Origin: Chloroflexota bacterium
GTDB lineage: Bacteria; Chloroflexota; Dehalococcoidia; Lucifugimonadales; UBA3495
DNA length: 34,293 nt
Direction of reading: 5' to 3'
Assembly: GCA_009840175.1 (NCBI GenBank)
Contig: VXOI01000009.1
Coordinates: 1 to 34,293 of the forward strand
The notes under the pieces: generated by a model
What the model was told of the DNA's origin: nothing
Databases searched by the model: none
What the model saw: only the letters and a program-made list of their open reading frames with translations
Shown: positions 2,562 to 26,938 of the stretch, one piece after another
How the letters are laid out: every line of letters begins with the position of its first letter
Position numbering within the stretch: position 1 is the stretch's first letter
Made by a program: the position numbers and the translations under genes

Positions 2562-3083
2562 TCACAAACCACGACCTGACAGTGCTCTCACACACAATGA
2601 TGCAAACGAAGCTCGCCGAATCCGACGGCACGCGTCATTCAACATCTTCAAGTACTCTGATGTCCAGGCGTCCGAAAAATCCCTATCGCTGAGAGCTTCC
2701 AGCAATATATTGGAACTCGGTTTTCTGTCGACTAGGCGCTCGGCCGGGACCACTATCCAGCGCGGTGTGGGGAAACCGATAGCCAAAGCGAAGTAGCCGA
2801 CTGCCCCGGACGAATCCAATAACGAGTCGAAATCTTCATTGGTCAATTGCCGCGGCCGTGGGCCGCTAACCTCAGCTTCAATCTCGAAGCGAAGCTCTTC
2901 TGCGCCTCTGAATGCGACGATGTCTGGATGCCCAAACTGGTTAATCTCTTTTATTCGGCAATTGAGCCGCATTAGTATGTGGGCAGCCATCGCTTGCACC
3001 TTGTATCCGAATTCAGAGGAGGAAACACTCAAGCGTAAATCCTCAATGCACTCGGACGCTCGCAATACTGCCTGGTCATTCAT
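2562..3083 (-). CDS. Small nuclease-like protein (divergent PD-(D/E)xK-like), partner of the SMC-like ATPase
   Basis: 173 aa; HPDIVAFRGAEELRFEIEAEV resembles a PD...ExE restriction-endonuclease-like core; overlaps the 3' end of the upstream ATPase gene by 8 nt. Confidence 0.5.
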   Translation of the reverse strand: MNDQAVLRASECIEDLRLSVSSSEFGYKVQAMAAHILMRLNCRIKEINQFGHPDIVAFRGAEELRFEIEAEVSGPRPRQLTNEDFDSLLDSSGAVGYFALAIGFPTPRWIVVPAERLVDRKPSSNILLEALSDRDFSDAWTSEYLKMLNDACRRIRRASFASLCVRALSGRGL

Positions 3084-5160
3084 ACATTATCTTCAGGGTT
3101 GGCCCTCTGTGTGGAGACCAACCGGTGGGCTCGATGATAACGTAGCTGTCCTCATCGAATACCTTCGGGATCATTTCTTGAAAGCGCTCAGTTTCTTGGG
3201 ACGCAACAATAAGCTGAACGTTGCGTCCGAGTTCGCGCAAGCGCTCCAAAAGAATATTGATGTGTTCCGTGTCCAAGGCTCGCGTGGGGTCGTCCAGCAT
3301 AACGAGGTAGACCTCGGTGGGGGTATCATCTGTCTGGCTGAACGCAAAGTGAGGGACCACAACCAAGGCGCTCTCTGCCTGGCCATTCAGTACGCCCGTC
3401 GGGTCTTCTCTACCAGTGGGATCTTGACTGCTTGCAACCCGAAGCTGCAGCTTCGGCAAGACAGAATTCGTGATTATCAGTCGGTCATACCAAGGGTGCT
3501 GCGTCAAGGCACTGAAGGCCCGGGAAAGGACTTCTGAGACACGAGGAATTTCCTGTCCTAATTGTTCGTTGAGCTGGGAATTCACTACCTCTTCAATTGT
3601 ACGGGCAGATTGCCCAAATGCCACCAGAGAATCGTAGGACTCTATGACTCTGTCGAGTTCCCTTCTATTTATCTGCAGGCTATTGAGTCGTCTTTGTATC
3701 CGGTGAAATCGGCTTTCTTCTTTAAGCCTGTTCAGTTCAGCTCGCTTGGATGCGGACCATGCGTCTTGGTCCTCCATCTGAGCATCGATAATGGATTCCT
3801 TCTGAACGTAGTTCTCGATCAATTGATCAATGTCTTCTGCCTCTGCCAGCCTGGCTTTGTCCTCGCTGTCAACAAGAGCCGCGGCATTCACCTCGTTGTC
3901 ACGTAACGATTTCAATCGGGATTCTTCTGTTCCGAGACGAAGTTCTAACTCTTCAGATTCTTGAAGTCGAGATTCAAGCTCGGCAACTATCGAACCTGCG
4001 GAGTCATCAGATTGGGTTGCGGTGCCCTGGAGGGTCGACTCCAAGACCTGCCGGTCGTGGTGAGAGTCACAGATCGGGCAGGGTACTTCCTCAGAGTCGC
4101 CCCGTCCAATTAAGTCAATCGCGTCGCGAACGATTCTTCCCTTTATGGATTCTGTTGTGGCTTCGAATTTCGCATCCGTTAGTTTTTGCTGCAACTCGTC
4201 GGCCGTTTGGTCATCGTACACATCCGCCAATTTGCCCTTGGTGCCTTGGATGATGGACTCCTGTGTCTGGATTTGAGCCGATACGCTGCGCAATTCTTCC
4301 AGTAGTCCTCGCGATTTGGCTAACTCCTCCGATCTTTTCTCTAAACTGCCTCGGTCTTGGGTGCGTCTCTCGCTGAGTGAGCTTTCGGCGCTCTCTAACA
4401 AGGCTTCAAGGGATGACCCTTGCAAGTCATCACCGGGAGGTTTTCCGGTGATTTCTTCAATGAAACGGCGGGCCTTCTGTTCTGACGCTGCGATTGATGG
4501 TGCTGGCCCGGTGCCCCAAGGTGGTGCGTTAAGGATACTGCTTCGACGGGTCTGCTCCTCTGCTATTTGACCGTCGATGTTCTTACGGACATCCGTGAGT
4601 TCCTCGTCTAATTCGTGCTCCAGGTCAGTCTGGTCTTCCAAGAAATCATTAAGGTTGCTTAGCAGCGCTCGTGGATGCGTAAGACCGAGGTAGTTGAAGA
4701 CGGTCCTTTCAAATGGGTCAAGATCCTCCGGCTGTCTGCGGAGTGGAGCCGATTGAGGGGCGAAGATAATATGCGTACCCTCACCAGCATCCACGGAGTC
4801 GAGTTGAGGCATTACCTCCCTCAAGGGGCGCCTGTTTCCATGGCGGTCGGTCAGGATGGGCTCGCTACTACTGCCGGTGCCGAGGTTTAGAGTACGACGA
4901 AGAGTCCATAGTTCTCCGTCACGAATCAACCTGACCGTAACGCGACAATCGCCAGAATAGTGCTGGTTCTTTACGACCTCGTTAGGTCGGTACGCCGAAC
5001 CGAATAGACCCCAGCGAACGGCCTCTACAATGCTAGATTTCCCGTTGCCATTGCGGCCAAGTAGGAACACGTGCCGACTCTTGAAGTCTATTGCCTGCGA
5101 AGATGCAAATCCCTTGAATCCTTCTATTTCCACGCTTTGAACACTGAAGCCCGTCGCCAC
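3076..5160 (-). CDS. Rad50/SMC-like AAA ATPase with coiled coil and a zinc-hook-like CxxC
   Basis: Walker A GRNGNGKSS; coiled-coil region; CPICDSHH hook; Walker B/D-loop region VYLVMLDDPTRALDTEH. Confidence 0.85.
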   Translation of the reverse strand: MATGFSVQSVEIEGFKGFASSQAIDFKSRHVFLLGRNGNGKSSIVEAVRWGLFGSAYRPNEVVKNQHYSGDCRVTVRLIRDGELWTLRRTLNLGTGSSSEPILTDRHGNRRPLREVMPQLDSVDAGEGTHIIFAPQSAPLRRQPEDLDPFERTVFNYLGLTHPRALLSNLNDFLEDQTDLEHELDEELTDVRKNIDGQIAEEQTRRSSILNAPPWGTGPAPSIAASEQKARRFIEEITGKPPGDDLQGSSLEALLESAESSLSERRTQDRGSLEKRSEELAKSRGLLEELRSVSAQIQTQESIIQGTKGKLADVYDDQTADELQQKLTDAKFEATTESIKGRIVRDAIDLIGRGDSEEVPCPICDSHHDRQVLESTLQGTATQSDDSAGSIVAELESRLQESEELELRLGTEESRLKSLRDNEVNAAALVDSEDKARLAEAEDIDQLIENYVQKESIIDAQMEDQDAWSASKRAELNRLKEESRFHRIQRRLNSLQINRRELDRVIESYDSLVAFGQSARTIEEVVNSQLNEQLGQEIPRVSEVLSRAFSALTQHPWYDRLIITNSVLPKLQLRVASSQDPTGREDPTGVLNGQAESALVVVPHFAFSQTDDTPTEVYLVMLDDPTRALDTEHINILLERLRELGRNVQLIVASQETERFQEMIPKVFDEDSYVIIEPTGWSPHRGPTLKIMYE

Positions 5161-7826: not shown

Positions 7827-8330
7827 TTAGAAGCTGCCCCAACCCAGCAATATGACCCAAAAGACAACCGAGAGGAGGCTCAGGTAGTACGCCCACCGGA
7901 CACGGCGCATTTTGGTGCTGGCTATCCAGGAAACCGTGTGAATCTGGTCCAACAGTTGACGCTCAATTGTCTCAGTCCCCATTGAAGTTGCTTGCTCTCT
8001 TAAAGACTCCAACGACATCGCCGCGATGTCCTCAAAGTAGATGAGGGATCCCCCGGTTCTCGGATTTCTGGGCAGGTAAACGCTGGTGGCAAACGCAACA
8101 ACACCGATGACAGATAGGGCGTAGAGCGCGAGCACTCCCGCCAGCACGGCCGACTCCACGCCCCAAGGCTCTTTTCCGATTATGGGAGCAAGTCTCTCGA
8201 ACCGGGCCGCCACTGTGCCTGCCAGTGCAACCTGGAGGGCCAGCACTGGTGCCGCCTTGCTGTCCGCCGCTCTCGTAAACCCAATCGCCCGGGACAGCGA
8301 TTCGTAATGGGACCTGAGACGCTCCTCCAC
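7827..8330 (-). CDS. pycTM: Pycsar effector-like transmembrane protein (PycTM-like)
   Basis: 167 aa with about 3 hydrophobic helices (ALQVALAGTVAARF, ESAVLAGVLALYALSVIGVVAFA, YYLSLLSVVFWVILLGW); starts 3 nt after the cyclase stop. Confidence 0.7.
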   Translation of the reverse strand: MEERLRSHYESLSRAIGFTRAADSKAAPVLALQVALAGTVAARFERLAPIIGKEPWGVESAVLAGVLALYALSVIGVVAFATSVYLPRNPRTGGSLIYFEDIAAMSLESLREQATSMGTETIERQLLDQIHTVSWIASTKMRRVRWAYYLSLLSVVFWVILLGWGSF

Positions 8331-8333
8331 GTT

Positions 8334-9170
8334 TCACCTAGCGGGACGTTGACCCGTAATAATCGCCTCGCAGAATTCTGCGCCGTGTCGCTCGCACCAA
8401 CCGGCCCTGCGCGTATAGACACTTCCGAAGTCCAGCCCCAATCCCTTTGGCGCAGCTTGTTTCGCCCACAATCTTGATGCTTGGCCGGTGGAAGCGCTCA
8501 ATCCCGGTCCTCGATTTCTACCGCCGCAGCCGCAGGACCAGATCAGGGCCTGTTGCCTTAACTTGGCAGCCCTTTCGTATCCGGCAAATACCCTGTCGGA
8601 CGCCGCCACCTGGTTGGGTCCGGCTGCGGAGCTCAGCTTGGCGGCCATGTTTACGGTCTTTCCGGCCCAAACTTCATTCCGTTTGGTTCCCTTCAATCCA
8701 AGTTGTCTCACGAGCAGGGTACCCTGGTCGATACCAACCCCGACCTCAAGTTTCCACTGAACCGAGGCGTCTTTCTTGAATCTCACGGCAACGACTTTTT
8801 CCACTTGGCTTCTCATGGTGATGGCGCAAGCGGCCGCATGGAACATAGACCTCTGGCCGCCGAACAGCCCGAATATCCCATCTCCTTGGATATCGACATA
8901 TCCCGCCGAGAATCTTTCCAGAACTACGGTCATTGCCCTGATGAAGTAGGTGTACGCGAGAGCCGCTGCTTCCGGCGAAACGGACGAACTGAGCGCGGTC
9001 GAACCTTTGAGGTCGGCGAACACGGCGGTGACGTTTGGAATCCGCCACCACAATCCCCTGCTGGCTGGTCCAGTCTCCGGAACTTCGGCCTGATCGATCA
9101 CCTGCACGCCGAGCTTGGCTTGGTCATTCAATTGGGCAACAACGGCTGTCGAAATTTCGTCAAGTATCAA
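8334..9170 (-). CDS. pycC: Class III-type nucleotide cyclase, candidate pyrimidine cyclase (PycC-like)
   Basis: FADLKGSTALSS and DIQGDGIFGLF metal-binding motifs, NEVWAGKTVNMAAKLSS; paired with a TM effector as in Pycsar. Confidence 0.75.
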   Translation of the reverse strand: MILDEISTAVVAQLNDQAKLGVQVIDQAEVPETGPASRGLWWRIPNVTAVFADLKGSTALSSSVSPEAAALAYTYFIRAMTVVLERFSAGYVDIQGDGIFGLFGGQRSMFHAAACAITMRSQVEKVVAVRFKKDASVQWKLEVGVGIDQGTLLVRQLGLKGTKRNEVWAGKTVNMAAKLSSAAGPNQVAASDRVFAGYERAAKLRQQALIWSCGCGGRNRGPGLSASTGQASRLWAKQAAPKGLGLDFGSVYTRRAGWCERHGAEFCEAIITGQRPAR

Positions 9171-9276: not shown

Positions 9277-11196
9277 TTACCTGCCAAGACCCGTGGTACA
9301 TTGAGCGCGGACTGGACAGTTCTTACACTTGGGCGCACGGGCTGTGCAGACCATGGCCCCCAAATCCAGAAGAGCCTGATTCCACTTTGCATCCGCGCCC
9401 TCGGCTCCGGCCAGTTCATAAAGCGAAAGCCTGAGATCCCACTTAGGTTGCTTGGGACCCTTGCCTGACACCCTGCGGGCTATCCTCATCGTGTTGGTGT
9501 CCATGATCACGCTGGAACGACCAAAAGCAAAACAGAGAACCGCGGAGGCTATATAATCGCCCACGCCTGGGATGGCAACCATTCCCTGCCAGTTGTCAGG
9601 CACCTGACCGGCCGCCCTGTCCCTGATGAATTCGGCAGCAGCGCCAAGATTCGCGGACCGCCAGTGGAGTCCGAGGGAGGCCAACGAAGGTTCGAGGGCC
9701 TCCAGGTTGTCTAGGAAAGAATCAGGCGTCCCACCCAATCTGAGCAGTTCGTCAGCCACCTTTGCCACCTGCTCGGCCCTTGTCCGGTGAAGGCACATTT
9801 CAAGCAACAAGGTCTGCCAGGGATTCAGGTCAGAGCGCCTCCAGGGAAAGTCACGCCTGTTCCACTTGAACCATTGAATTAGGCTGTCCCGAAAGGAAAT
9901 CCTGTATTCGGCCCTGTTCTCTCTGACCACCGAGTGGACTGGACTGTCGCCAAGGACTTGTTTCACCGACGAAGCTATAGCCGAAGCGAGCATCGGGGGA
10001 ACTGCGTTGCCAATTTGCCGATACCTGCTGGACGGGTGTCCGGCAAACCTGAATACATCGGGAAAGGTTTGAATTCTGGCCGCCTCCCGTATAGAGAGGG
10101 TGCGGTCCTCTCTCGGATGGATGTACCAGTAACCATCCTTGGCTATATGAGCGGTAATGGTCCTGGACAGGCCTTCGAAGGACAACCTTACATACTTATC
10201 ATTGAAAATATCGGATCGGTATCTCCTGGAATCTTCGGGTACGTCCAGGTAGGTATCTCCGGGGTTCAGTTGAGAGTAAATCAGCGCGTCATCCGGTCGC
10301 ACCGCCCTAGTCACATGATCCCGAATCCGCCGGGATTCCTCGCCTCGCAATCCCTTTCTGAGCGACTTCGCCAGTGCTGAGGAAGGTGGACCCTCATACG
10401 CCTGGGTTTCGCCCCTGGTATCCGCAGGAACCACTGGAAGGTCACCGATGGCCTGCCCCACCGTCGGTTGCCTCCCCCGAGGTTTGGGCCACTCAAATTT
10501 CCCATTTCCTGCAATCCCGACTACAAAGAGACGTGAGCGATGCTGAGGAACACGATACTGCCACGCCTGCAGCATCTTCACGTGCACTTCATAGTCACGG
10601 CCCTTCAGCTCATCCATCAGGGCAACCAACAACGCCCCTCCCTGAGCTTGGGCGAAATCGGGAACGTTCTCAAATAGCATGGCCTTCGGATTCAACCTGT
10701 CAATAACGGAAAAGAAGCTCCGCCACAGGTCGGCCCTGTCATCGAGAACCCTGCGGTTGCCCGTCCTAACCAGGTTCCCAATCTTGGAGACGCCGGCCCT
10801 GGAGAACGGCTGGCAGGGAGGACCACCCGCCAAGAGGTCAACGTCTTCAATGCCCCATTCATCCAATTGGTGAATGAAGGCAGAGGGATCGGCAAGATCC
10901 CCCGTCCAGGTGAGACTCTGAATATTAGCGGCATGGGTTTCGGTCGAAACAGGGTCGAAGTCTGCCGCGGCGATGACGGAGAAGCCCGCCTCCTCCAATC
11001 CCAGGCTCAACCCGCCGGCGCCGCAGAAGAGGTCTATCGCCCAAGGGCGTGGGCGTTCTTCCAACCACGTGCGTACGGCATCCCCGTCGTTCGGGTCCGG
11101 CGACATCTGGTGAGGGACTAGTTTTATCCGTTCCCCCCGGTGGGTGGGCAGTCTGTAGGACGAAGGTTTTTGGGCAGTTTCGGAAGGATTATCCAT
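9277..11196 (-). CDS. Fusion: C5-cytosine DNA methyltransferase plus HhH-GPD/MutY-Mig-type mismatch DNA glycosylase
   Basis: MTase motifs AIDLFCGAGGLSLGLEEAGF, GGPPCQPFSRAG, FENV, QHRSRLF, RQIGNAVPP; then FPWRRSDLNPWQTLLLEMCLHRTRAEQV, IPGVGDYIASAVLCFAFG, VIMDTNTMRI and [4Fe-4S] CTARAPKCKNCPVRAQC in one ORF. Confidence 0.93.
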   Translation of the reverse strand: MDNPSETAQKPSSYRLPTHRGERIKLVPHQMSPDPNDGDAVRTWLEERPRPWAIDLFCGAGGLSLGLEEAGFSVIAAADFDPVSTETHAANIQSLTWTGDLADPSAFIHQLDEWGIEDVDLLAGGPPCQPFSRAGVSKIGNLVRTGNRRVLDDRADLWRSFFSVIDRLNPKAMLFENVPDFAQAQGGALLVALMDELKGRDYEVHVKMLQAWQYRVPQHRSRLFVVGIAGNGKFEWPKPRGRQPTVGQAIGDLPVVPADTRGETQAYEGPPSSALAKSLRKGLRGEESRRIRDHVTRAVRPDDALIYSQLNPGDTYLDVPEDSRRYRSDIFNDKYVRLSFEGLSRTITAHIAKDGYWYIHPREDRTLSIREAARIQTFPDVFRFAGHPSSRYRQIGNAVPPMLASAIASSVKQVLGDSPVHSVVRENRAEYRISFRDSLIQWFKWNRRDFPWRRSDLNPWQTLLLEMCLHRTRAEQVAKVADELLRLGGTPDSFLDNLEALEPSLASLGLHWRSANLGAAAEFIRDRAAGQVPDNWQGMVAIPGVGDYIASAVLCFAFGRSSVIMDTNTMRIARRVSGKGPKQPKWDLRLSLYELAGAEGADAKWNQALLDLGAMVCTARAPKCKNCPVRAQCTTGLGR

Positions 11197-11641: not shown

Positions 11642-11938
11642 ATGAAAGCGGAGATCAATGTCCCGGACCACTTGGCCGAAGCCTTGGACTTCATGGCGGA
11701 GTGCGACGGTCAGACGCCCGATGAATACATCCAAGAGCGGGTGATACTCTACCTGCAGGATTGGCTCTACCACATCAAGGACCCTGACCACGGAATAACA
11801 CGTTCCATCTGCGGGCATTACGGCGGTCCCAATTTGGTCACGGCCCTCGGTGCTGAGGAGCAGACTCCCGGGCTGCTCACGCCAATCCAGATGTGTTCGG
11901 TATGCCTTGCGGCTCAAGCCAAAAACCACGATCCCTGA
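11642..11938 (+). CDS. Small hypothetical protein (98 aa)
   Basis: ORF MKAEINVPDHLAEALDFMAECDGQTPDEYIQERVILYLQDWLYHI..., good codon appearance, upstream purine-rich stretch. Confidence 0.55.
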   Translation: MKAEINVPDHLAEALDFMAECDGQTPDEYIQERVILYLQDWLYHIKDPDHGITRSICGHYGGPNLVTALGAEEQTPGLLTPIQMCSVCLAAQAKNHDP

Positions 11939-12104: not shown

Positions 12105-14303
12105 ATGGGCATTGAGATGACAGATACAGCGAATTCCACATCGGGGACCAGCACGCTTCGCCCGAGGGCCCGCATTCTTCGCACTCTTGGCGACGAACTG
12201 ATCAGCAGCGAAGCCGTCGCGCTGATGGAGCTCGTCAAGAACTCCTACGATGCCGACGCCACCAGGGTACTGGTGAGATTTCACGGGCCTCTCGAAATCG
12301 GGAAAGGGAAGGTCGAGGTCATTGACAACGGTCATGGAATGTCGCTGGAAACCATCCAGACAACCTGGATGGAGCCGGCCACCCTCTCCAGGAAACGGGA
12401 GCGGAGAAGCCAACGATTGGGTCGTCGCGTTCTGGGAGAAAAAGGGATTGGGCGATTCGCCACCTCACGCTTGGCCAACTTCCTTGAAGTGGTGACCCGT
12501 CGGGCGGAGTCAGAGCAGGAAACCCGAGTCTATTTCGACTGGGCGCAATTTGACAACGAGGGGAAATACCTGGACGAGGTTGAGGTTCTGTGGGAGGAGG
12601 AAGACCCCACGGAACTCGCACCGGGTGGTATCGTCGAACGACTGTGGGACTCCGGTGGAGAGCCGAATCTGGACGATCTGACCCACGGCACAATCCTCCG
12701 AATGGAGCAGTTGCGGAGCAACTGGAGCGGGTCTGAATTTGAGGATCTGCGGACCAGATTGTCGCGCCTGGTATCGCCCTTCTTTGGAGACGAGCTGTCA
12801 GCAAGGAATGACCAATTCGAGCTGTGTCTTGACCTTCCTCCGCCGTTCGAACAGCAGTCCGGTATCGTCGAACCTCCCGAACTGCTCCGTAGTCCTCATT
12901 ACGTATTGAAGGGCACGATAAATGCGGACGGTCGCTATGACTTTGACATCGGTCTGCGGGATGGAGGCAGCGAGGAGTCAATTCAGGGCGAATTCAACCC
13001 CAAAAGCCATGAACCGGAATGTGGTCCCATAGGAGTCGAACTGCGGGTTTGGGACCGGGACCCAACTTCCATGGCCGAACTGGTGGAGCGTCATTCGTTC
13101 CAATCGGTTTCCCAGGTCAGGGGGATGTTGGACAATGGCGCCGGCATCAGTATCTATCGGGACGGGTTCAGAGTGCTGCCCTACGGCGAACCGGACGATG
13201 ACTGGTTGCGGCTGGATATGCGTCGTGTGCAGAACCCCACACTTCGACTGTCAAACAACCAGGTCTTGGGCTACGTGTTAATCTCATCCGAGGGAAACCC
13301 GAATCTCAGGGACCAGAGCAATCGGGAGGGTCTCATCGAGGGCCCCCCTCTGGACGGCCTCAGAGAGTTGGTCAAGATGACCCTCCATGAACTTGAGGTT
13401 CGGAGGTACAAGCTCCGTCATCCAACTCCCCAACCCCGGCGGCGGCAAGCCGGGGGCCTCTTTGCCGACCTCGACCTGGCGACTGTCCGCGATTATGTGC
13501 AACGCCAACACCCGGATGACCATCATCTAAGGCAATTGGTTGGGAATGCGGAAAGGGAACTGGAAACCCGCGCCCAGGGAATTCAGGAAGTTCTTTCCCG
13601 CTACCACCGTCTGGCTGCTCTCGGACAGCTGATAGATGTTGTTCTGCATGACGGCAGAGCGCCTCTGGCAAAAATAAACAATGAGGCTGTCCTGGGACTG
13701 CGGGACGTAGACCGTTCGGGACAGGGCAGTATGGCCGCTATCGTGAAACTTGGGGACAGATTCAGAGGTATCGTGACCCAGTCCGACGCACTGGCAACCA
13801 TCTTCAGAAAAATCGAGCCATTTGGCGGAAGGAAGCGGGGGAGACCGGGATTGGTCTCGTTAGAGGAAGTGATAGCGAATGCCTTTTCCGTTCTCGACAC
13901 CGAGATTGCGGAAGTCGGAGTGGAGATAAGCCTGCCGGATACCAAGACCCAGGTCACGGTGGACCAAGCAGAGATTCAGCAGGTTGTCATCAATCTCCTA
14001 CAAAACAGTCTGCACTGGCTGCGTCATGTGCCCCAGGACACCCGACAAATCTCCGTTCACGTGCGGCGAAGAGAGCCGGATGAGGTGGAGGTCGTATTCT
14101 CAGATAGCGGGCCCGGTGTGAGTCCCGATTTCAGGGATCGAATTTTCGACCCGTATTTCTCCACCAAACCGGACGGAGTGGGACTTGGATTGACAATCGC
14201 CGGGGAGATAGTGAATGACTACTACGCAGGGGACCTCGAATTGCTGGAAAATGGTCCCCTTGCCGGAGCGACGTTCCGAATTGTCCTGCGTCGCCGGGTG
14301 TGA
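12105..14303 (+). CDS. Double-GHKL protein: N-terminal HSP90-like ATPase plus C-terminal histidine-kinase HATPase
   Basis: N-terminal ALMELVKNSYDADATRV, VIDNGHGM, GEKGIGRFATSRL; C-terminal H-box-like VVLHDGRAPLAKI, VINLLQNSLHWL, FSDSGPGV, GVGLGLTIAGEIV. Confidence 0.85.
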   Translation: MGIEMTDTANSTSGTSTLRPRARILRTLGDELISSEAVALMELVKNSYDADATRVLVRFHGPLEIGKGKVEVIDNGHGMSLETIQTTWMEPATLSRKRERRSQRLGRRVLGEKGIGRFATSRLANFLEVVTRRAESEQETRVYFDWAQFDNEGKYLDEVEVLWEEEDPTELAPGGIVERLWDSGGEPNLDDLTHGTILRMEQLRSNWSGSEFEDLRTRLSRLVSPFFGDELSARNDQFELCLDLPPPFEQQSGIVEPPELLRSPHYVLKGTINADGRYDFDIGLRDGGSEESIQGEFNPKSHEPECGPIGVELRVWDRDPTSMAELVERHSFQSVSQVRGMLDNGAGISIYRDGFRVLPYGEPDDDWLRLDMRRVQNPTLRLSNNQVLGYVLISSEGNPNLRDQSNREGLIEGPPLDGLRELVKMTLHELEVRRYKLRHPTPQPRRRQAGGLFADLDLATVRDYVQRQHPDDHHLRQLVGNAERELETRAQGIQEVLSRYHRLAALGQLIDVVLHDGRAPLAKINNEAVLGLRDVDRSGQGSMAAIVKLGDRFRGIVTQSDALATIFRKIEPFGGRKRGRPGLVSLEEVIANAFSVLDTEIAEVGVEISLPDTKTQVTVDQAEIQQVVINLLQNSLHWLRHVPQDTRQISVHVRRREPDEVEVVFSDSGPGVSPDFRDRIFDPYFSTKPDGVGLGLTIAGEIVNDYYAGDLELLENGPLAGATFRIVLRRRV

Positions 14304-15511
14304 TTATGGCGGGAACTGAGTGGCAGGCGTTGTTCGTTGATGATGACCCCGACCTGTGCCGTCAGGTCGAGGAATATCTTGACGGGGAACTTGTCGGCGG
14401 TTCGGATCATGTCCTCCGGGTGCAGGCCATCAGTGATTTCAACAGTGCCCTGAGTGAACTGGAAACCCGACGCATTGACCTTCTGATACTGGACGTCAGG
14501 GTAGGTCCCCATGATCAGGAACACCAAGATGATGGGAACACAGAAGACGCAGAGAGCCTGGTGGAAGAAGAGGGTATCAGAATTATAGCTGCCGTTCGTG
14601 CGAGGCGATTTGTGCCCGTGGTGTTCTATACGGGCCTTGATTACAAGGTTCGAGCAATGGAATCGCCGGTAGTGCGGATAGTGGAAAAGACGGAAGGTCT
14701 GCCGAAACTGCTGCTAACCATCAGGGAAATCTTCGATACCGCGTTGCCACAGACCAATCGTGCATTGGTCCATCATTTGGAAGCGGTGCAACGTGATTAT
14801 ATGTGGGGCTTCGTTGCGGAGAATTGGAACAGTTTTGCCGGGGGCGCAGACCGCAGGGAATTGGCCTACCTGTTGGCGAAGCGTTTGGCAATCTCATTAT
14901 CCGGGCCGGGCATTCAACAGTTGGCGCAGGACATGGGTGATACCACGGGTGCATTCACATCGGATGAAAGGGTTCATCCGATGCTGTACTACCTGCTGCC
15001 ACCGGTGGAGCCAGCACCCCTTGCGGGTGACCTGTATTATGGTGCCATCGGTGAGCAGGCCGGATATTGTATTCTGATTACCCCATCCTGCGATATGGTG
15101 GCTGGAAGAGAGAAGGCGGACTTCATGCTCTTTGCTCGCTGCCTTCATCTTGCGGAGCAACCGGAATTTGCAGCCTGGAAGGCAGGACTCCCAGAACCGT
15201 CCAACAATGTGAAGCGAAGGTTGGAGTTCCTGCTTGGAAACAACCGACAGGGTGGCCAACCCGAGAGGTTCTACTTCCTTCCAGGAGCTCTCACCCTGCC
15301 CAATTTGGTGGTGGATTTCCAGCAGTTAGTGACCCTGCCACGAGGCACAGCGAATGGTCTGGAGCGGAGAGCGTCCCTCGATAGCCCCTTCGCCGAAGCA
15401 TTCCTAGCACGCTTCGCCCGGTATTTCGGTAGATTGGGAACACCGGACCTAGATGTGGATTCCGTGATGTTCAGATTAAACCAGCAATTCGGCGGTCAAA
15501 GTTTGTCTTGA
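14300..15511 (+). CDS. Response regulator receiver with an uncharacterised C-terminal domain
   Basis: VDDDPDL, LLILDVRVGP (phospho-acceptor Asp), VVFYTG, VEKTEG; start overlaps the upstream stop (GTGA); C-terminal region contains ITPSCDMV. Confidence 0.85.
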   Translation: MIMAGTEWQALFVDDDPDLCRQVEEYLDGELVGGSDHVLRVQAISDFNSALSELETRRIDLLILDVRVGPHDQEHQDDGNTEDAESLVEEEGIRIIAAVRARRFVPVVFYTGLDYKVRAMESPVVRIVEKTEGLPKLLLTIREIFDTALPQTNRALVHHLEAVQRDYMWGFVAENWNSFAGGADRRELAYLLAKRLAISLSGPGIQQLAQDMGDTTGAFTSDERVHPMLYYLLPPVEPAPLAGDLYYGAIGEQAGYCILITPSCDMVAGREKADFMLFARCLHLAEQPEFAAWKAGLPEPSNNVKRRLEFLLGNNRQGGQPERFYFLPGALTLPNLVVDFQQLVTLPRGTANGLERRASLDSPFAEAFLARFARYFGRLGTPDLDVDSVMFRLNQQFGGQSLS

Positions 15512-16488: not shown

Positions 16489-17388
16489 CTATTGGCCTTG
16501 AATCGCGCGGATAGTCTCGGTTAACTCAACTGTCAATTCCTCAAGTCCCTGCGCGTTCGGCAAATATCTGACGTATCTGATGTGCCGAAGATCGAATGGT
16601 ACATCCTCGTCGTTTTGCACGATCATAATTACATCGCGGTTTCGCGCATGGGCGAGTCCCGTTTCATACAATACGTTGGGATTTCGCCCCGTAAGGTCAC
16701 TGACCACCAGCTTGCTCTGTTCTATGGTTCTGAAGACGTCGTCGATGATGTGCGTAGGACCGTATATCTCGTCAACTCGCAGCGGCTTGAGGCGTAGCCC
16801 TTGGCACGTCTCCCTCACCGCCTCGTAAACAGGATTAAAAGCTGTATCGAAAGGCATCATTACCGCGACGTGTCCGAGGTGTGCCAAGGGCCACGGCTCC
16901 ACACTGAACGCTTTTGGGCATTTTTCAATAGGTTGCTGATTGAGCAGTTGCAGGACGCTTTCCATGAGATTGCCATTCTTTACAGCCCAATGAGTACGTC
17001 GTGTTTCGTCGATCCCGCTACTGCTGAGGAAAATATCGAAGAGGCCGCTGTTGAAGACTTCCTCTGAGGTGAACCTGCCGAACAGATGGTCGAAGCGAAA
17101 ACGTATATTCGTTCCCTGATTTTCGATTTGGTCGATGCGGCTTACGAAGGCCGGCTGACCGAGATTATCAGGGTGGCGCTCGGCTACCACCAGAGTGGGA
17201 AGATCGCTCAGATCTTTCAAGTTGTCACTGAATTTGGATTTCAAGCCACCATCGGTGCCTTCAAGCATTCTACCCGCAGGGAAGTAACCCCATCCGGACA
17301 GGCTGCGAAAGACCGGGTGGTCGGTGGCTGCATATACGATCAAATTATAATGAGTCTGAGACCATTCCATGGCAATTTCCTTATGCAC
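16489..17388 (-). CDS. Protein with C-terminal TIR-like/nucleoside 2-deoxyribosyltransferase-like domain
   Basis: AVMMPFDTAFNPVYEAVRETCQGLRLKPLRVDEIYGPTHIIDDVFRTIEQSKLVVSDLTGRNPNVLYETGLAHARNRDVIMIVQNDEDVPFDLRHIRYVRY. Confidence 0.75.
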   Translation of the reverse strand: MHKEIAMEWSQTHYNLIVYAATDHPVFRSLSGWGYFPAGRMLEGTDGGLKSKFSDNLKDLSDLPTLVVAERHPDNLGQPAFVSRIDQIENQGTNIRFRFDHLFGRFTSEEVFNSGLFDIFLSSSGIDETRRTHWAVKNGNLMESVLQLLNQQPIEKCPKAFSVEPWPLAHLGHVAVMMPFDTAFNPVYEAVRETCQGLRLKPLRVDEIYGPTHIIDDVFRTIEQSKLVVSDLTGRNPNVLYETGLAHARNRDVIMIVQNDEDVPFDLRHIRYVRYLPNAQGLEELTVELTETIRAIQGQ

Positions 17389-20500: not shown

Positions 20501-20700
20501 TCAGCGGGCAGGCCGCGGTTAATCTGGGCGAGGGTATTTCGCAACCGATGCTCTATGATCACCTGACTGTAATCGTTACGTTCGAAGTTAGGCGTCTCAG
20601 GAGCGATGTCAGGGCCGTACATCACGCGCCAACTAAGACCCTCCAGCCAAGCGAGTGCTGCCTGTTCGACAACATACTCTGAGAGTAGAGCTCTGTTCAT
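17533..20700 (-). CDS. hsdR: Type I restriction-modification endonuclease/translocase subunit R
   Basis: 1055 aa; [21 protein letters not shown] nuclease motif, [11 protein letters not shown] Walker A, DEAH ([11 protein letters not shown]), [16 protein letters not shown]-like [18 protein letters not shown]. Confidence 0.97.
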
Positions 20701-21353
20701 GGCTCCACCTCTTCCATGGCTTCTTCCCCAAAGGTACCTATCAATTTCCCACCGAGATCTCGATAGGCTGGGTGGTCGACAGCAAACAACAACTCGCTAG
20801 CATAGTAATCCTGCTCACCTACGGTGATGATACCGTACTGCGCGTCAATAGCCATATCGAAATCCCTTTCTTGAGCCGGAGGCTGCTGTGGAGTTCGATC
20901 AAGTATCGCTTGTTCGAGCGCAGCTTCGGGGTCGCCAACCTCAAAGAGGACCGAGAATATCCAAAGTGCAGCGTTTCGAGCGATCTGAAGGGTGATTATG
21001 TCGGGTATTCCCTTCTGACCACCGTGATACTGCTCGTTCCGTTGACGGTGCGCCCAAATGATGTGCGATTTTTCTATTGACCAAGTAAGGCTTCTTTTCT
21101 CCAGTTCCTTCTCGAAGAACCCAAGCTTGGTGAGATAGTCTTGCATCCATTGGTTGACATCATCCCTTTTGTACTGGCGCCCTCCTCGTTGGACCGGATG
21201 CAGCGTAAGGTAGGTCGTGATTGCCACCTCAATGGCATTATCGAAGCTGATGAGTGCAATGCTGCGACCGAAATCGTCTGCTTCGCGCAGGTGACTTTCC
21301 GCATGAACCATCAACTCGAACGGACCAATGGCCCATGGGGGGAGAGAGGTCAT
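20697..21353 (-). CDS. HEPN-like domain protein (candidate RNase toxin) inside the Type I R-M operon
   Basis: 218 aa; RNEQYH matches the HEPN RX4-6H motif; helical N-terminus ...[17 protein letters not shown]; overlaps hsdS and hsdR by 4 nt each. Confidence 0.6.
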
Positions 21354-22993
21354 GGTGCTTCCTCAGTTAGCAAACATTTCGGTTGCCTTACCTCTAACCC
21401 TCCCGACACCAGTCTCGGCAGCAGCACATCCCGCTGAGCGGCCAAAGAGCGAGAGCCGAATTCGTTGGTCCTGAGCTTCTGTTCCAACGGTAGCACCCAT
21501 TTAGCGAACCTGCCGACTAGTTCGTCCGTTGGGGATATTACCGACAGGGTCTCGAACTGCTTTCTGGTAATCGCGCCGAAAACCGTACCTGTTTGCTCGT
21601 ACCGCTCAAACTCGGACTGCATAGCCCAGGCTGAATAGTAGGTGAATGCACCGGACTCCGATTTGTGTCGCAATGCGGCTACTCCTCTGCCGATGCAGCA
21701 TTTCTCCCAAGCCATGTTCAGGGCACCAACGGGTGCTCTAACACTGACCAATGTATCGCCTCCTTCGGCAATTCGATTAGGTGACGAGCAATATTTTCGG
21801 TTGCTGGGAAATCGCGCCCCAAAGTCGGTGCTACCTTGAAAGAACGGCAGTCCTTCGCCATGGTCATTGTAAGTGTTTCCCGGTGGTGATTGCCCCATCG
21901 TGAGATTAAAGCAATCCCCTAGCGACTTCACCTCCCACCCTTCCGGTATCTCGCCCAACTCCGAGTCCACGAGCCGGTCAGGAAACAGGTCCCACAGCTC
22001 CGGCGGGAGGTACGGTTCCCGTCCTTCCAGCTTGGCGCGGACCGGGCCGAAGTCCACGAACCAGTCCTCAAAGATGGCACGGGCCATGGCTTCCAGCGTT
22101 TCGTTCATCCGCCGGTTGAGCTCAATCTTGTCGTCCAGCGTACCGAGGATGTGAGCGATTGAGCGTTGTTCAGGTAAGGGCGGGAGCATGAACATAAACT
22201 GCTTGATCCGATCCGGGGACGTATGTTTCACCGTCGTTCCGGTCGCACTCGCGAGGATCTCGTGGCGATAGTCTGCGGTGCACATGACGTAGTAGAGGAA
22301 TCTCGTATCAACGGCATCGGTTCCCTTGAGGGAAACCTTTCCAAGACGTTGGTTGTGCAAATAGCGAAGTCCCTCTGGGCCTTCGGGTACGAGTGCCGGG
22401 TAACCAAGAGTGTCCGAAAGTTTGCTGAGGTCGGTCATCGTGACCAGCAAATCACCTGTGCTGAGGACAAACTCTTCGGGAACATACCCATCGTAAAATT
22501 TGAACTTCTCACCCTTAAACCCTCCGCCTACGGCAAAGTTACCAGGCGTAAGCAGCACATCTCCTCGGGGTTCGTCGTGGATGTTTTCACCCTTGAAAGC
22601 GAACCCGTGCTTTATATCAACCAGGTCTCCGATAGACACCTGGGCCCACCCACCGTAACCCTTTGACGTCGATTTGAGCCGCATGTCCTGCACGACCACG
22701 TAACTGCGTTCAATCGCCCGTTGAAAACTCTCCGGCAACCTTGCCCAGTCGTGGACCTGAATCGAGATAGGGATGTTGGACTGCTCTAATGCCTCGACGA
22801 GTTCGACGTATTCGTTGCCCAAGGGTTCCAGGGTAGGGCCGCGCAACACCAGATCCAGGTCGCTGCCGTCGTGGCTCCGGCCGCTAACGCGGCTGGCGCA
22901 GGCCCACACTTCGGCGTCGGGCACGTACTCGTGCACTAGCGCATCGAGTTGTTCCCGGTAGCGGAGGAGGAAGTCCAAGCGGTCAGTCATCAT
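21350..22993 (-). CDS. hsdS: Type I R-M specificity subunit with N-terminal minimal nucleotidyltransferase (MNT) domain
   Basis: N-terminal EVWACASRVSGRSHDGSDLDLVLRGP (S-X10-DxD); two TRDs with central repeat LPPLPEQRSIAHILGTLDDKIELNRRMNETLEAMARAIFEDWFVDF. Confidence 0.9.
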   Translation of the reverse strand: MMTDRLDFLLRYREQLDALVHEYVPDAEVWACASRVSGRSHDGSDLDLVLRGPTLEPLGNEYVELVEALEQSNIPISIQVHDWARLPESFQRAIERSYVVVQDMRLKSTSKGYGGWAQVSIGDLVDIKHGFAFKGENIHDEPRGDVLLTPGNFAVGGGFKGEKFKFYDGYVPEEFVLSTGDLLVTMTDLSKLSDTLGYPALVPEGPEGLRYLHNQRLGKVSLKGTDAVDTRFLYYVMCTADYRHEILASATGTTVKHTSPDRIKQFMFMLPPLPEQRSIAHILGTLDDKIELNRRMNETLEAMARAIFEDWFVDFGPVRAKLEGREPYLPPELWDLFPDRLVDSELGEIPEGWEVKSLGDCFNLTMGQSPPGNTYNDHGEGLPFFQGSTDFGARFPSNRKYCSSPNRIAEGGDTLVSVRAPVGALNMAWEKCCIGRGVAALRHKSESGAFTYYSAWAMQSEFERYEQTGTVFGAITRKQFETLSVISPTDELVGRFAKWVLPLEQKLRTNEFGSRSLAAQRDVLLPRLVSGGLEVRQPKCLLTEEAP

Positions 22994-23002
22994 CGCACTC
23001 CG

Positions 23003-24745
23003 CTAGTTCTCTGACTGGTATTCCAGCAGAGATGATCTGCCTATTACGTCAAGAATTCGGATAGTTGCCTCCCGCCCGTCCGCATCGGTCATCCGCAGGC
23101 GCTCTGCAAAGGTGAACGAAACGGGCTGCTGCTTTCCTTGGTTAATCGCGATGTTGGAAGCGTACAGGTAGGTCCGGTCATGAGTGTCGCGGATGGGGTT
23201 CAATCTGCCCTTGACAACAGGCAGGTAACCCGTTCCCTCGGCGAAGATAACACTTCCACCTCCGCGGAGAGGTTGCAGGTCGATGGATAAAGACCCGTGA
23301 CTAGGGACCCACTCTCGCTCCACGTATCCGCAGCAGCCTGTGGCGGCGGCAAACACCGTCATGGGGAGATGGGTAGTGTACAAGTCCACGGAAGCTTCGC
23401 CGTTTTCGTCCGTGGCTGCATCCTTCCAAGTCTTGTTCGGGAATAGAGCAAGCACGGCGGCCCCTGGCAGGGGTTGACCGCCGGAGCGCACAGCAATAAT
23501 AGCTCGGGCGGGGCTTTGGTCCAGGACTGCTGCCGGAACGGTGAGGCGGACTTCCGAACCGTCAATGAGTTGATAGTCAGGTATTTTGCCGGACAGTTCA
23601 CGGGTTTCGCGCAAAATGATCTGAACGCCGTCTCCCCGCCGTTCCATAATATACTGTCTATCCTCCGCACCACCGATGCCACCCACTGGCATACGCGTCA
23701 GCACGGAGGTCAATGCTTCGTTACGGGTCGCCTGACGGTCAGTCATACTGTCAAGGGTCAAATTGTTTGGGAGCGAACCGGGCGACTGGATCTCCACGCG
23801 GTCTTCAAAAATTGACAAGCGTATCTTGCTGGAGCGTATTGAATAGTCGCGATGGACAACAGCGTTGACTATAGCCTCGAAAAGTACCCTCTCACTGTAT
23901 TGCGGCAGATTCACGCGGGCAGGGTCTTTTCGGGACGCCACCCGTATATTTCTCAAGGCAAAGGCGACGGCTTCACCAATTTGCTGGTTAATCGGTCCGA
24001 CTATCTCCTGTGCGTCAATTTGGCCGGATGCCCGGTCCAACCCTCTGTAGCGAGTTGCCGTGATGCCGGCGTTGGCAAGCCATTGTTCGGGATGCCGAGT
24101 GCACAGCAGCACACCGGCCACGGTGGCGCGTAGAATCCCGGCATCGTCGTTGGCCAACATGGCCAGCTTCGTCAATCCTGCCTCGGGTTCAGCCGCTCCT
24201 TCCACGCTCAACAAGGGTCTCCAGAGCATCTCGTCCAAGGTATTAAAACCGGTTCCGGGAATTGTCTGCTCGTCGTAGGAAGAAAACCGCCCCTGGCCTC
24301 TCCGTTGAGCAAGGCGCAGGCGCTCATCGCTGGTCATTCTGCGCTTTGTACCGCCCACTCGAATATAGCTGCCACCGGAGCTGTCATACTGCGTGTCGCC
24401 CTGCGTGACCTCTACCAATAGCAACCGCTTACCATCGACCTCCCGGTGATAGGTCCGGATGCGAACCGCCGGCTTGATGGTGTCGGTGCTTACCTCAACC
24501 AGCAGGGAGTCCAATGCCACCATCTGCTCACGTGACATACCCTGCACTTCACCTTCATCGGTTACGCCACAAAGCAGCATACCGCCGTCAGCATTGGCGA
24601 AAGCCGCTATTTCGTCAGACCAGTCGCTGCGGCTCGGCCCTGTCGGGCGATTTCCAGCGAATTCTATCGCCTTGAACTCCCAATTGCTGTCTTCACCAAG
24701 CTGCAAACGAGAGATGATTTCGTCGTTATCGAACGTCATGATCAT
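23003..24745 (-). CDS. AlbA_2/Schlafen-like ATP-binding protein with C-terminal HATPase-like and beta-rich regions
   Basis: EDSNWEFKAIEF...DEIAAFANADGGMLLCGVTDEGEVQG (AlbA_2), YIRVGGTKRRM, FEAIVNAVVHRDYS (HATPase_c_4-like). Confidence 0.9.
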   Translation of the reverse strand: MIMTFDNDEIISRLQLGEDSNWEFKAIEFAGNRPTGPSRSDWSDEIAAFANADGGMLLCGVTDEGEVQGMSREQMVALDSLLVEVSTDTIKPAVRIRTYHREVDGKRLLLVEVTQGDTQYDSSGGSYIRVGGTKRRMTSDERLRLAQRRGQGRFSSYDEQTIPGTGFNTLDEMLWRPLLSVEGAAEPEAGLTKLAMLANDDAGILRATVAGVLLCTRHPEQWLANAGITATRYRGLDRASGQIDAQEIVGPINQQIGEAVAFALRNIRVASRKDPARVNLPQYSERVLFEAIVNAVVHRDYSIRSSKIRLSIFEDRVEIQSPGSLPNNLTLDSMTDRQATRNEALTSVLTRMPVGGIGGAEDRQYIMERRGDGVQIILRETRELSGKIPDYQLIDGSEVRLTVPAAVLDQSPARAIIAVRSGGQPLPGAAVLALFPNKTWKDAATDENGEASVDLYTTHLPMTVFAAATGCCGYVEREWVPSHGSLSIDLQPLRGGGSVIFAEGTGYLPVVKGRLNPIRDTHDRTYLYASNIAINQGKQQPVSFTFAERLRMTDADGREATIRILDVIGRSSLLEYQSEN

Positions 24746-25350
24746 CCCACCTCGCGTTGCTGGAAAGGCTGGCCCAGCTTTTGAGCTACTTCTTCGGGTA
24801 GGTCAGGGAAATGGTCTCGCAATACCACTGGCTCGACTTCGCCAATGCGAAGCCCCAAACGGCAACGGATGTGCTTTACCGCTGGAATCAAACCTGCGAT
24901 AAACGGTTCCAGTAGTGATTGCGCTTCTCCATATGCTCCTTGGCGATGTTCAACTTCGGGTACACGAGAGTTCTGGTACCACGAGGCAAGACCCTCTTCA
25001 AGCCAGTTGGTGTTACGTCCGGCGGTAGCAGGCTCCCAGGGGTCCAGCAAGTGAACGCATTCGTGGGCAAGTTGCCAACGGGCTCGGGCTGGGTCCGTCA
25101 ACGCATTTCCGCTCAGGCGGATGATGATGTGTCCGAGTCTTCCGTTACCATCGCCAGGATACCAAAGATGAGGAGGCCTATCCGGCGCCGGGTCGATGTC
25201 AATTCCGGTGACGCAATATGAGCGGTCTCTAGGACCGAATAAGTCCTCGAGTTCCGCCAAAAACCGACTGGTACATTCGGGAAGCGTGAGTTCCCTTTCG
25301 CCTCCTTCCGCATCGGGTTGAATCAAGAAAAGAGACCCTAACTTATTCAT
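24742..25350 (-). CDS. Putative gluzincin-type metallopeptidase
   Basis: [12 protein letters not shown] (HExxH) followed 18-19 residues later by [11 protein letters not shown]; start MNKLGS overlaps the hsdM stop by 8 nt. Confidence 0.7.
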
Positions 25351-26938
25351 CGCCGAACCCCAGCCGTTCCAGGTTCTCGGCGATGGCAGTGTCCAGACGA
25401 TTGGCGTCGTTCTGCTGCTCACGCCATTGGGCGGCGAGGCGCGCCATCTTCTCCTGGAAGGGTTCGCCGTCGTCAGGCTGCGGCTCAGCGCCCACGTAGC
25501 GGCCCGGTGTGAGGACGTGGCCATGCTTGCCGATTTCCTCCTGTGATGCGCTCCTGCAGAAGCCGGGTACGTCTGCGTATTCCGTATCGCAGTCATTATT
25601 CCGCCAAGCGCGGTAGGTACCTGCGATACGGGTTATATCCTCGGCGGACAAGTCCCGGTGGGTGCGGTCCACCATGTAACCCAGCTTCCGGGCGTCAATG
25701 AACAGCGTCTCCCCGGTGCGCGTTTCCCCCGCGATGCGGCCCTTGCGGAGGAACCAGAGGCAGGCAGGTATCTGGGTGGAGCGGAATAGTTGCCCCGGTA
25801 GGGAGATGATGCAGTCCACCAGGCCCGCCTCAACAATGCCCTTACGGATTTCACCCTCACCCGACTGATTGGACGACATGGAGCCGTTAGCCAGCACAAA
25901 CCCAGCGATGCCCCGGGGCGCCAGGTGGTACAGGAAGTGCTGTACCCAGGCGAAGTTGGCGTTTCCTGCTGGCGGGACGCCATACTGCCACCGCTGGTCG
26001 TCCCGCAATCGTTCTCCCCCCCAATCGGAGACGTTAAAGGGTGGGTTGGCCAGGATGTAGTCGGCCCGCAGGTCGGGGTGGCGATCGTTGTGGAAGCTGT
26101 CGCCAAAGGCAATCTGCCCTTCGATACCTCGAATGGCTAGATTCATCCGGGCCAACCGCCAAGTCGTGTAGTTGGATTCCTGTCCATAGATGGAAAGGTC
26201 CCCTCTGGCCCTTCCGCCGTTGCCGTTCCCGGTGGCGTGGGCGCGTATGAAGTCAACGGATTGAACGAACATCCCGGAGGAGCCGCAGCAGGGGTCGTAG
26301 ACCCGGCCATGGTACGGCTCCAACATCTCCACTAGCAGCCGTACCACCGCGCGGGGGGTGTAGAATTCGCCGCCCTTGCGCCCTTCGGCCAATGCGAACT
26401 GTTCCAGGAAGTATTCGTACACTCGGCCCAGCACGTCGGTGGCCTGAGTCTCGGCGCCACCGACTCTGATATTGCTTACTAGGTCCACCACCTGGCCTAG
26501 TCTCTGTTTGTCGAGGGCATCCCTGCCATACTCCTTGGGCAATACGTCCTTGAGCGCGGGGTTGTCCCGCTCCACTGCGGTCATGGCATCGTCCACCATT
26601 CTGCCTATGGTGGGCTGTCGAGCTTGGTTTTTCAGGTGTTGCCAGCGTGCCTCGGGCGGTACCCAGAATATGCTTTGGGCGCGGTATTCGTCGGGATCCT
26701 CCGGGTCGGCGCCCTGGTCTCGCTCGTCCTCTAGCTTGGCGTAGGCTTCCTCGAAGGCGTCAGAGATGTACTTGAGGAAGATGAGGCCCAGGACGACGTG
26801 CTTGTATTCGGCAGCGTCCATGCTGCCCCGGAGGGCATCGGCCATTCGCCAAAGTTCAGCGCGGTAGTCCGCAACCGCATCGCCGCCCGAAGCAGCCATT
26901 GGACCGCCGCTATTCCGTTTCCTTCTTGCCGTCGTCAC
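25343..26938 (-). CDS. hsdM: Type I R-M N6-adenine methyltransferase subunit M
   Basis: [26 protein letters not shown] (NPPF), [18 protein letters not shown]. Confidence 0.97.

Follow-up and report, generated by a model that had tools for sequence, protein, structure and literature searches.

We describe here a two-gene locus in a window of 34,293 nucleotides, that is, positions 1 to 34,293 of the forward strand of contig VXOI01000009.1 from a Chloroflexota bacterium (assembly GCA_009840175.1). The locus, at 12105-15511, holds two open reading frames (ORFs), one for a sensor histidine kinase (HK) and one for a response regulator (RR), exactly where a preliminary description made from the sequence had placed them. 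That description overlooked the divergent gene, listed first among the features below, which encodes a C5 cytosine methyltransferase and a DNA glycosylase in a single polypeptide.

9277-11196, minus strand: divergent partner gene, C5 cytosine methyltransferase (residues 54-412) fused to a MutY/Mig-type DNA glycosylase (residues 435-634)
12105-14303, plus strand: paraMORC-like sensor histidine kinase of 732 residues, with an N-terminal GHKL+S5 half, a DHp helix pair and a CA domain
12213-12572, plus strand: N-terminal GHKL ATPase of the kinase, residues 37-156 (Pfam HATPase_c_3, E 7e-21, above cut-off)
12723-13424, plus strand: predicted S5-like/transducer region, about residues 207-440, limits approximate (conserved RRVQNP and Q386)
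13647-13649, plus strand: codon of His515, predicted phospho-acceptor in the H box LHDGRAPL (LHEGRxPL in relatives)
13962-14294, plus strand: C-terminal kinase ATPase, residues 620-730 (Pfam HATPase_c, E 4e-24, above cut-off)
14300-15511, plus strand: response regulator of 403 residues, GTG start (in-frame ATG at 14306)
14321-14749, plus strand: receiver domain of the regulator, a profile match to solved receivers (D14/D15, D65, T111, K130)
14492-14494, plus strand: codon of Asp65, predicted phospho-acceptor, conserved in 54/54 homologues
14972-15454, plus strand: output domain of the regulator, about residues 225-385 (G243-D244, P262-x-C264-D265, P328, R378-x-G380)

The HK carries two separate GHKL modules, as had been proposed, and the motif residues of both are invariant among the 40 aligned homologues in which the conservation of the kinase was read: E42, N46, D74xGxG78 and GxKGxGR117 in the N-terminal ATPase, and N630, N634, D667xGxG671 and GxGxG695 in the C-terminal one. 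The H-box-like VLHDGRAPL pointed out in the preliminary description is real. Indeed, His515 is invariant in the same homologues and the family profile puts this H box on that of FixL (E 2e-34), while from about residue 485 on the profile aligns with the solved DHp-CA kinases FixL, HK853-type and ZraS. The N-terminal half is MutL/MORC-like, with the GHKL motifs characteristic of paraMORCs intact, and by analogy with the paraMORCs (PMC2292703) the conserved region of about residues 207-440 may adopt an S5 fold. Moreover, the first 200 residues are homologous to the restriction enzymes of BbrUII/HgiDII type (NF050001, E 7e-22; PADLOC REase_II, E 8e-16). Neither protein has a transmembrane segment: the 19-residue hydropathy peaks at 1.03 in the HK and at 1.22 in the RR, and in neither is a hydrophobic stretch long enough to span a membrane, in agreement with the earlier statement that no transmembrane sensor is evident.

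The stop of the HK and the start of the RR overlap in the GTGA at 14300-14303 that had already been noticed; a start at the ATG at 14306 would abolish this overlap. The receiver scores below the Pfam threshold (28.1 bits, for a cut-off of 30.2), but the profile of 54 RR homologues, in which the conservation of the regulator was read, matches PDB receivers at E 3e-10. D65 is present in all 54 of them, and the acid pair D14/D15, T/S111 and K/R130 are also conserved, so that the receiver can be called full, as first described. The two-component residue set is thus complete, from the DHp histidine and the N, G1 and G2 boxes of the CA domain to the receiver aspartate with its acid pair, T/S and lysine. 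From these residues the receiver is predicted to be phospho-competent, and phosphotransfer from His to Asp may take place between the two proteins. A PADLOC PDC-M60B match of the RR (E 8e-6) spans receiver residues only and was not used as evidence. A decayed second copy of the RR, likewise overlooked at first, lies at 2000-2255 on the plus strand; it covers residues 36-124, with 89% DNA identity over about 218 bp, and has no kinase remnant alongside.

What does the C-terminal part of the RR do? It gave no match in Pfam, NCBIfam or PADLOC and none in PDB at E 10, and neither a helix-turn-helix (HTH) or other DNA-binding domain, nor a housekeeping output domain, nor a known effector domain was recognised in the RR. 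The claim that the C-terminus is not an HTH therefore stands, and the match to a known housekeeping output that would have counted against the preliminary description was not obtained. Nor did the other such result turn up, a lack of enrichment of homologues near defence genes, although no statistical test aimed at it was made. The domain has its own signature, GD[IL]...[VIL][TS]PxCD...K...LP...RxGxPD, in which Cys264 and Pro328 are conserved in 54/54 homologues and Asp244 and Asp265 are conserved too. Profile comparison links this domain with the C-terminal parts of four further RR groups, making at least five subfamilies, which accompany differing methyltransferases: the RR partners of N4/N6-linked kinases (E 2e-13), those of HerA-linked kinases (E 2e-12), genuine Response_reg_2 C-termini (hhalign E 3e-9) and a fourth group (E 5e-8). 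These comparisons score 55-85, whereas column-shuffled controls (60 for each) reach at most 26 and an unrelated alignment 16. The domain also occurs by itself, as proteins of about 185 residues in several genomes (E 5e-21 against the RR domain).

In several cases these stand-alone proteins adjoin a TIGR04255 protein and a small ORF; a cassette of the three genes was seen at four loci (L132, L134, L136 and L141) in unrelated genomes. No mention of TIGR04255 was found in the literature searched. Two folds were considered for the output domain and rejected. The strand pattern GDI...VVLTP had prompted a comparison with the SH3-like fold of MazF/PemK, but the hhalign scores were weak, E 0.22 for the output domain against a PF02452 alignment (members from 40 relative genomes) and E 0.018 across 19 columns for the stand-alone domain. 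A PD-(D/E)XK nuclease is not indicated either, as the E/DxK arrangement is absent; the only Pfam match, that of one member to RE_XamI (E 0.019), was taken for noise.

These features of the RR bear on the possibility that the pair is a Detocs-like abortive infection system, in which the output domain would be a toxin acting on a metabolite or on RNA and the linkage to a methyltransferase would merely set or tune the trigger. An HK with an RR of non-HTH C-terminus inside a defence island fits this proposal, and the invariant Cys264 could form an active site with Asp244 and Asp265. However, the catalytic role of Cys264 is putative, no known effector fold was found in the domain, and the window has no stand-alone receiver like DtcB. 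We regard this explanation as improbable.

The kinase alignment was run against GTDB genomes in one scan, and 80 homologous loci were taken, the best among confirmed matches that number at least 569; this sample is biased toward relatives of the window kinase. For 51 of these loci at least 3 kb are available on either side of the kinase (the long-flank loci below). The GTDB scan found the HK-RR pair in many bacterial phyla and in one methanogen metagenome-assembled genome (MAG), an archaeal one, and because it recurs in this way the pair is not a chance arrangement. Phage genomes and viral contigs held no homologue of the pair, and E. coli genomes queried with the DNA of the Enterobacter pair gave no match. 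An RR-like neighbour lies beside the kinase in 75/80 loci, and the pairwise identities of HK and RR are correlated (rho 0.71 for the receiver, 0.75 for the output domain). At two loci (L062 and L072) a kinase of the superfamily is followed, where the RR is expected, by a giant protein of 1293 to 1876 residues, with Helicase_C in one of them.

The most constant companion besides the RR is a DNA methyltransferase, found near the kinase in 68/80 loci (58 C5, 9 N4/N6 and the remainder HsdM-type) and in 46 of the 51 long-flank loci. That of the window matches PF00145 at E 2e-56 and has the catalytic motifs GGPPCQ and ENV; its gene is divergent from HK-RR, with 0.9 kb between them. The glycosylase half belongs to the MutY/endonuclease III superfamily, and its PDB matches to MutY and to the G-T mismatch enzyme 1kea are about equal; the tyrosine in GVGDYIAS presumably occupies the position that discriminates Mig from MutY, which would point to T:G repair. 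Methyltransferase and glycosylase are also fused in two relatives (L007 and L013) and are adjoining separate genes in two others (L008 and L030). Between the methyltransferase and the kinase of the window lies an ORF of 98 residues with paired cysteines (11642-11938, plus strand), which may be a real small gene. Plasmid-borne relatives have this set as well: in conjugative Campylobacter plasmids dcm adjoins HK-RR, and a Hymenobacter plasmid carries Vsr-dcm-HK-RR.

Vsr was found in 36/80 loci, and Vsr or a MutY-type glycosylase at 34/44 long-flank C5 loci, compared with 0/7 of the other long-flank loci and 0/9 of the N4/N6 loci. On the kinase tree the alternation between Vsr and glycosylase requires five changes, so that non-homologous repair enzymes have been swapped while methyltransferase, HK and RR stayed together. 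One could ask whether the kinase is a sensor of methylation damage, its MutL-like N-terminus monitoring T:G mismatches, hemimethylation or methyltransferase-DNA adducts and signalling repair or growth arrest, with defence against phages not its primary role. The frequency of Vsr and MutY/Mig glycosylases at C5 loci and the MutL-like N-terminus speak for it. Nevertheless, in a whole kinase clade the linked methyltransferases are of the N4/N6 kind and a mismatch-repair partner is lacking, and Vsr generally accompanies C5 methyltransferases, so the kinase is not needed to explain it. This explanation seems to us at least as improbable as the Detocs-like one, and perhaps a shade more so.

Apart from HK, RR, methyltransferase and Vsr/glycosylase, no gene cluster is common to more than 9 loci, and thus there is no conserved separate nuclease; in particular, no restriction nuclease adjoins the window pair and none is conserved across the 80 loci. 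Type I subunits, EcoRII-C, HerA and a Z1/PD-(D/E)XK/AIPR cassette each occur in subsets of loci only. This distribution bears directly on another explanation, namely that HK and RR are no effector but a control circuit that regulates the neighbouring methyltransferase or other restriction-modification (R-M) genes, as C-proteins do. The constant linkage to methyltransferase genes of two chemistries and the R-M nucleases of some neighbourhoods agree with such a role, and control of R-M by signalling was suggested in 2021 (PMC8011034). On the other hand, the RR has no recognised DNA-binding domain, no nuclease gene that could be controlled is conserved across the loci, and the order and strand of the methyltransferase gene relative to HK-RR differ among loci, the two being divergent and 0.9 kb apart in the window. 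We consider a control circuit unlikely, though less so than the two preceding explanations, and it is because of the lack of a conserved nuclease that we favour the following reading over it.

We propose, with confidence evenly divided between its being right and wrong, that HK and RR together form the arm that signals and acts in an R-M-like defence module centred on the C5 methyltransferase. Sensing of the state of the DNA, phosphotransfer, the activity of the output domain and defence against phages or plasmids are what we infer from the genes and their company. Host DNA would be marked by the methyltransferase, while the T:G mismatches arising from 5-methylcytosine would be repaired by the fused glycosylase, a task that would fall to Vsr in most relatives. 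The GHKL-S5 half may work as a clamp driven by ATP, engaging either DNA itself or a complex of DNA and protein in the presence of foreign or unmethylated DNA. Through this engagement the C-terminal kinase domain would be driven to trans-autophosphorylate His515, and the phosphate would then move to Asp65 of the RR. The GD/PxCD output domain, released or dimerised, would finally perform or license the action against the invader, instead of a dedicated restriction nuclease.

We favour such a defence module because the linkage to a methyltransferase is nearly constant without a conserved nuclease, because the N-terminus is homologous to restriction enzymes and because HK and RR have diverged together. 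The swapping of Vsr and glycosylase around a constant core of methyltransferase, HK and RR, the output domain shared by five RR subfamilies and the setting in a defence island argue in the same direction. Several observations nevertheless weigh against it. In the output domain no nuclease motif can be recognised, none of its homologues has a known function, and stand-alone copies of it lie beside TIGR04255 proteins. Five long-flank kinase loci (L016, L020, L021, L028 and L062) have no methyltransferase. The N4/N6-linked kinases form a single clade on the kinase tree, so that the contrast in repair genes between the two chemistries amounts to a single event. Finally, a few loci have an obvious nuclease (EcoRII-C, Z1/PD-(D/E)XK or HsdR cassettes), which the pair could regulate.

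The window is indeed a dense defence island, with type I R-M, Pycsar, GmrSD and TIR-like genes. A Pycsar pair lies at 7827-9170 on the minus strand (PycC cyclase, PADLOC E 8e-64; PycTM effector, E 4e-26), and a protein of 299 residues (16489-17388, minus strand), whose gene lies in the interval from the RR to the type I R-M operon, matches the PADLOC model of a CBASS TIR effector (E 3e-14). At 20697-22993 (minus strand) HsdS is extended at its N-terminus by a segment that resembles a minimal nucleotidyltransferase (weak Pfam match, E 0.01) and adjoins a HEPN-like ORF of 218 residues, possibly an MNT-HEPN pair inside the type I R-M operon. At 23003-25596 (minus strand) this operon also includes two further genes, one for an AlbA_2 Schlafen/ATPase protein, the other an ORF that has the metalloprotease-like motif HECVHLL. 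Further away, an SMC/RecN-like ATPase (3076-5160, minus strand; LmuB match, PADLOC E 2e-22) is followed by an ORF of 173 residues, and a single chain of 798 residues with GAF/PAS-like, histidine kinase, receiver and winged-helix parts (30410-32806, minus strand) is apparently an ordinary hybrid regulator.

R-M is normally a direct decision to methylate or to cut. That a methyltransferase has been retained together with kinase and RR across bacterial phyla and in an archaeal MAG, although no nuclease is conserved, implies that a layer of signalling stands between the recognition of self and non-self DNA and the response. Furthermore, the C-terminus of the RR is one unnamed domain found in at least five RR families, Response_reg_2 among them, and in stand-alone proteins, so that the biochemistry of this single domain would explain all the proteins that carry it.

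How does the pair compare with known systems? Its composition, a kinase of HATPase_c_3, DHp and HATPase_c with an RR and a C5 methyltransferase, is not unprecedented. Bellieny-Rabelo et al. published it in 2021 (PMC8011034): they describe kinases composed of HATPase_c_3, HEF_HK and HATPase_c that adjoin Response_reg_2 proteins and are accompanied by C5 methyltransferases and Vsr, test the R-M enrichment of this HEF_HK/Response_reg_2 family by simulation and suggest a signalling that controls R-M systems. As in that account, the window has a soluble kinase of this architecture adjoining a receiver protein with a homologous C-terminal domain, and a C5 methyltransferase nearby, often with Vsr among relatives. 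However, the window HK and RR gave no match up to E 10 to PF19191 (HEF_HK) and PF19192 (Response_reg_2), respectively, and the H box is LH[DE]GR rather than HEF. A PF19192 search of the window genome was negative; control genomes were equally silent, and true members turned up in other genomes. The genome of the closest relative (L007) holds a true PF19192 pair at a locus separate from its window-type pair. Since neither Pfam model matched and this genome carries both, we consider the window pair a sister family. The window branch and the shared output domain appear to be undescribed, the latter being absent from the description of HEF_HK/Response_reg_2 in the portion of PMC8011034 consulted.

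The preliminary description had likened the logic of the pair to Detocs (DtcA/DtcB/DtcC). Part of this comparison holds, as the kinase is soluble and looks intracellular, the RR has no DNA-binding domain and the setting is a defence island. The Detocs RR is fused to an effector, PNP-type or alternative, whereas that of the window has no recognised effector domain and is accompanied instead by a methyltransferase/repair gene. Nor is there a DtcB buffer receiver, one of the components that PMC11728103 summarises: a third receiver gene is absent beside the pair. Detocs is thus a functional analogy only. The defining association being with DNA methyltransferase and 5-methylcytosine mismatch repair genes, the logic is that of R-M rather than of Detocs. 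PorX and the PglZ of BREX (PMC12839542) provide a precedent for an output domain that an RR has in common with a distinct defence protein, although PglZ has a known phosphodiesterase/nuclease fold and the window domain matches no known family.

With type II R-M the locus shares a methyltransferase with its catalytic motifs, but the cognate restriction nuclease is absent next to the pair. With the paraMORC/MORC GHKL-S5 ATPases (Iyer et al. 2008, PMC2292703) the kinase shares the N-terminal GHKL, the predicted S5 and a context of R-M and Vsr, whereas paraMORC1-5 were described there without a fused histidine kinase or a receiver partner. The last comparison is with the restriction enzymes to which the N-terminus is homologous. 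Enzymes of BbrUII/HgiDII type pair with C5 methyltransferases, and in the window kinase the DHp-CA module occupies the place of their nuclease half. A bolder and decidedly tentative proposal is that the locus is an R-M system with a phosphorelay as its restriction step, in which a histidine kinase has replaced the nuclease half of an ancestral GHKL-type restriction enzyme and the RR, with its output domain, is the effector, sensing or killing upon loss of self-methylation.

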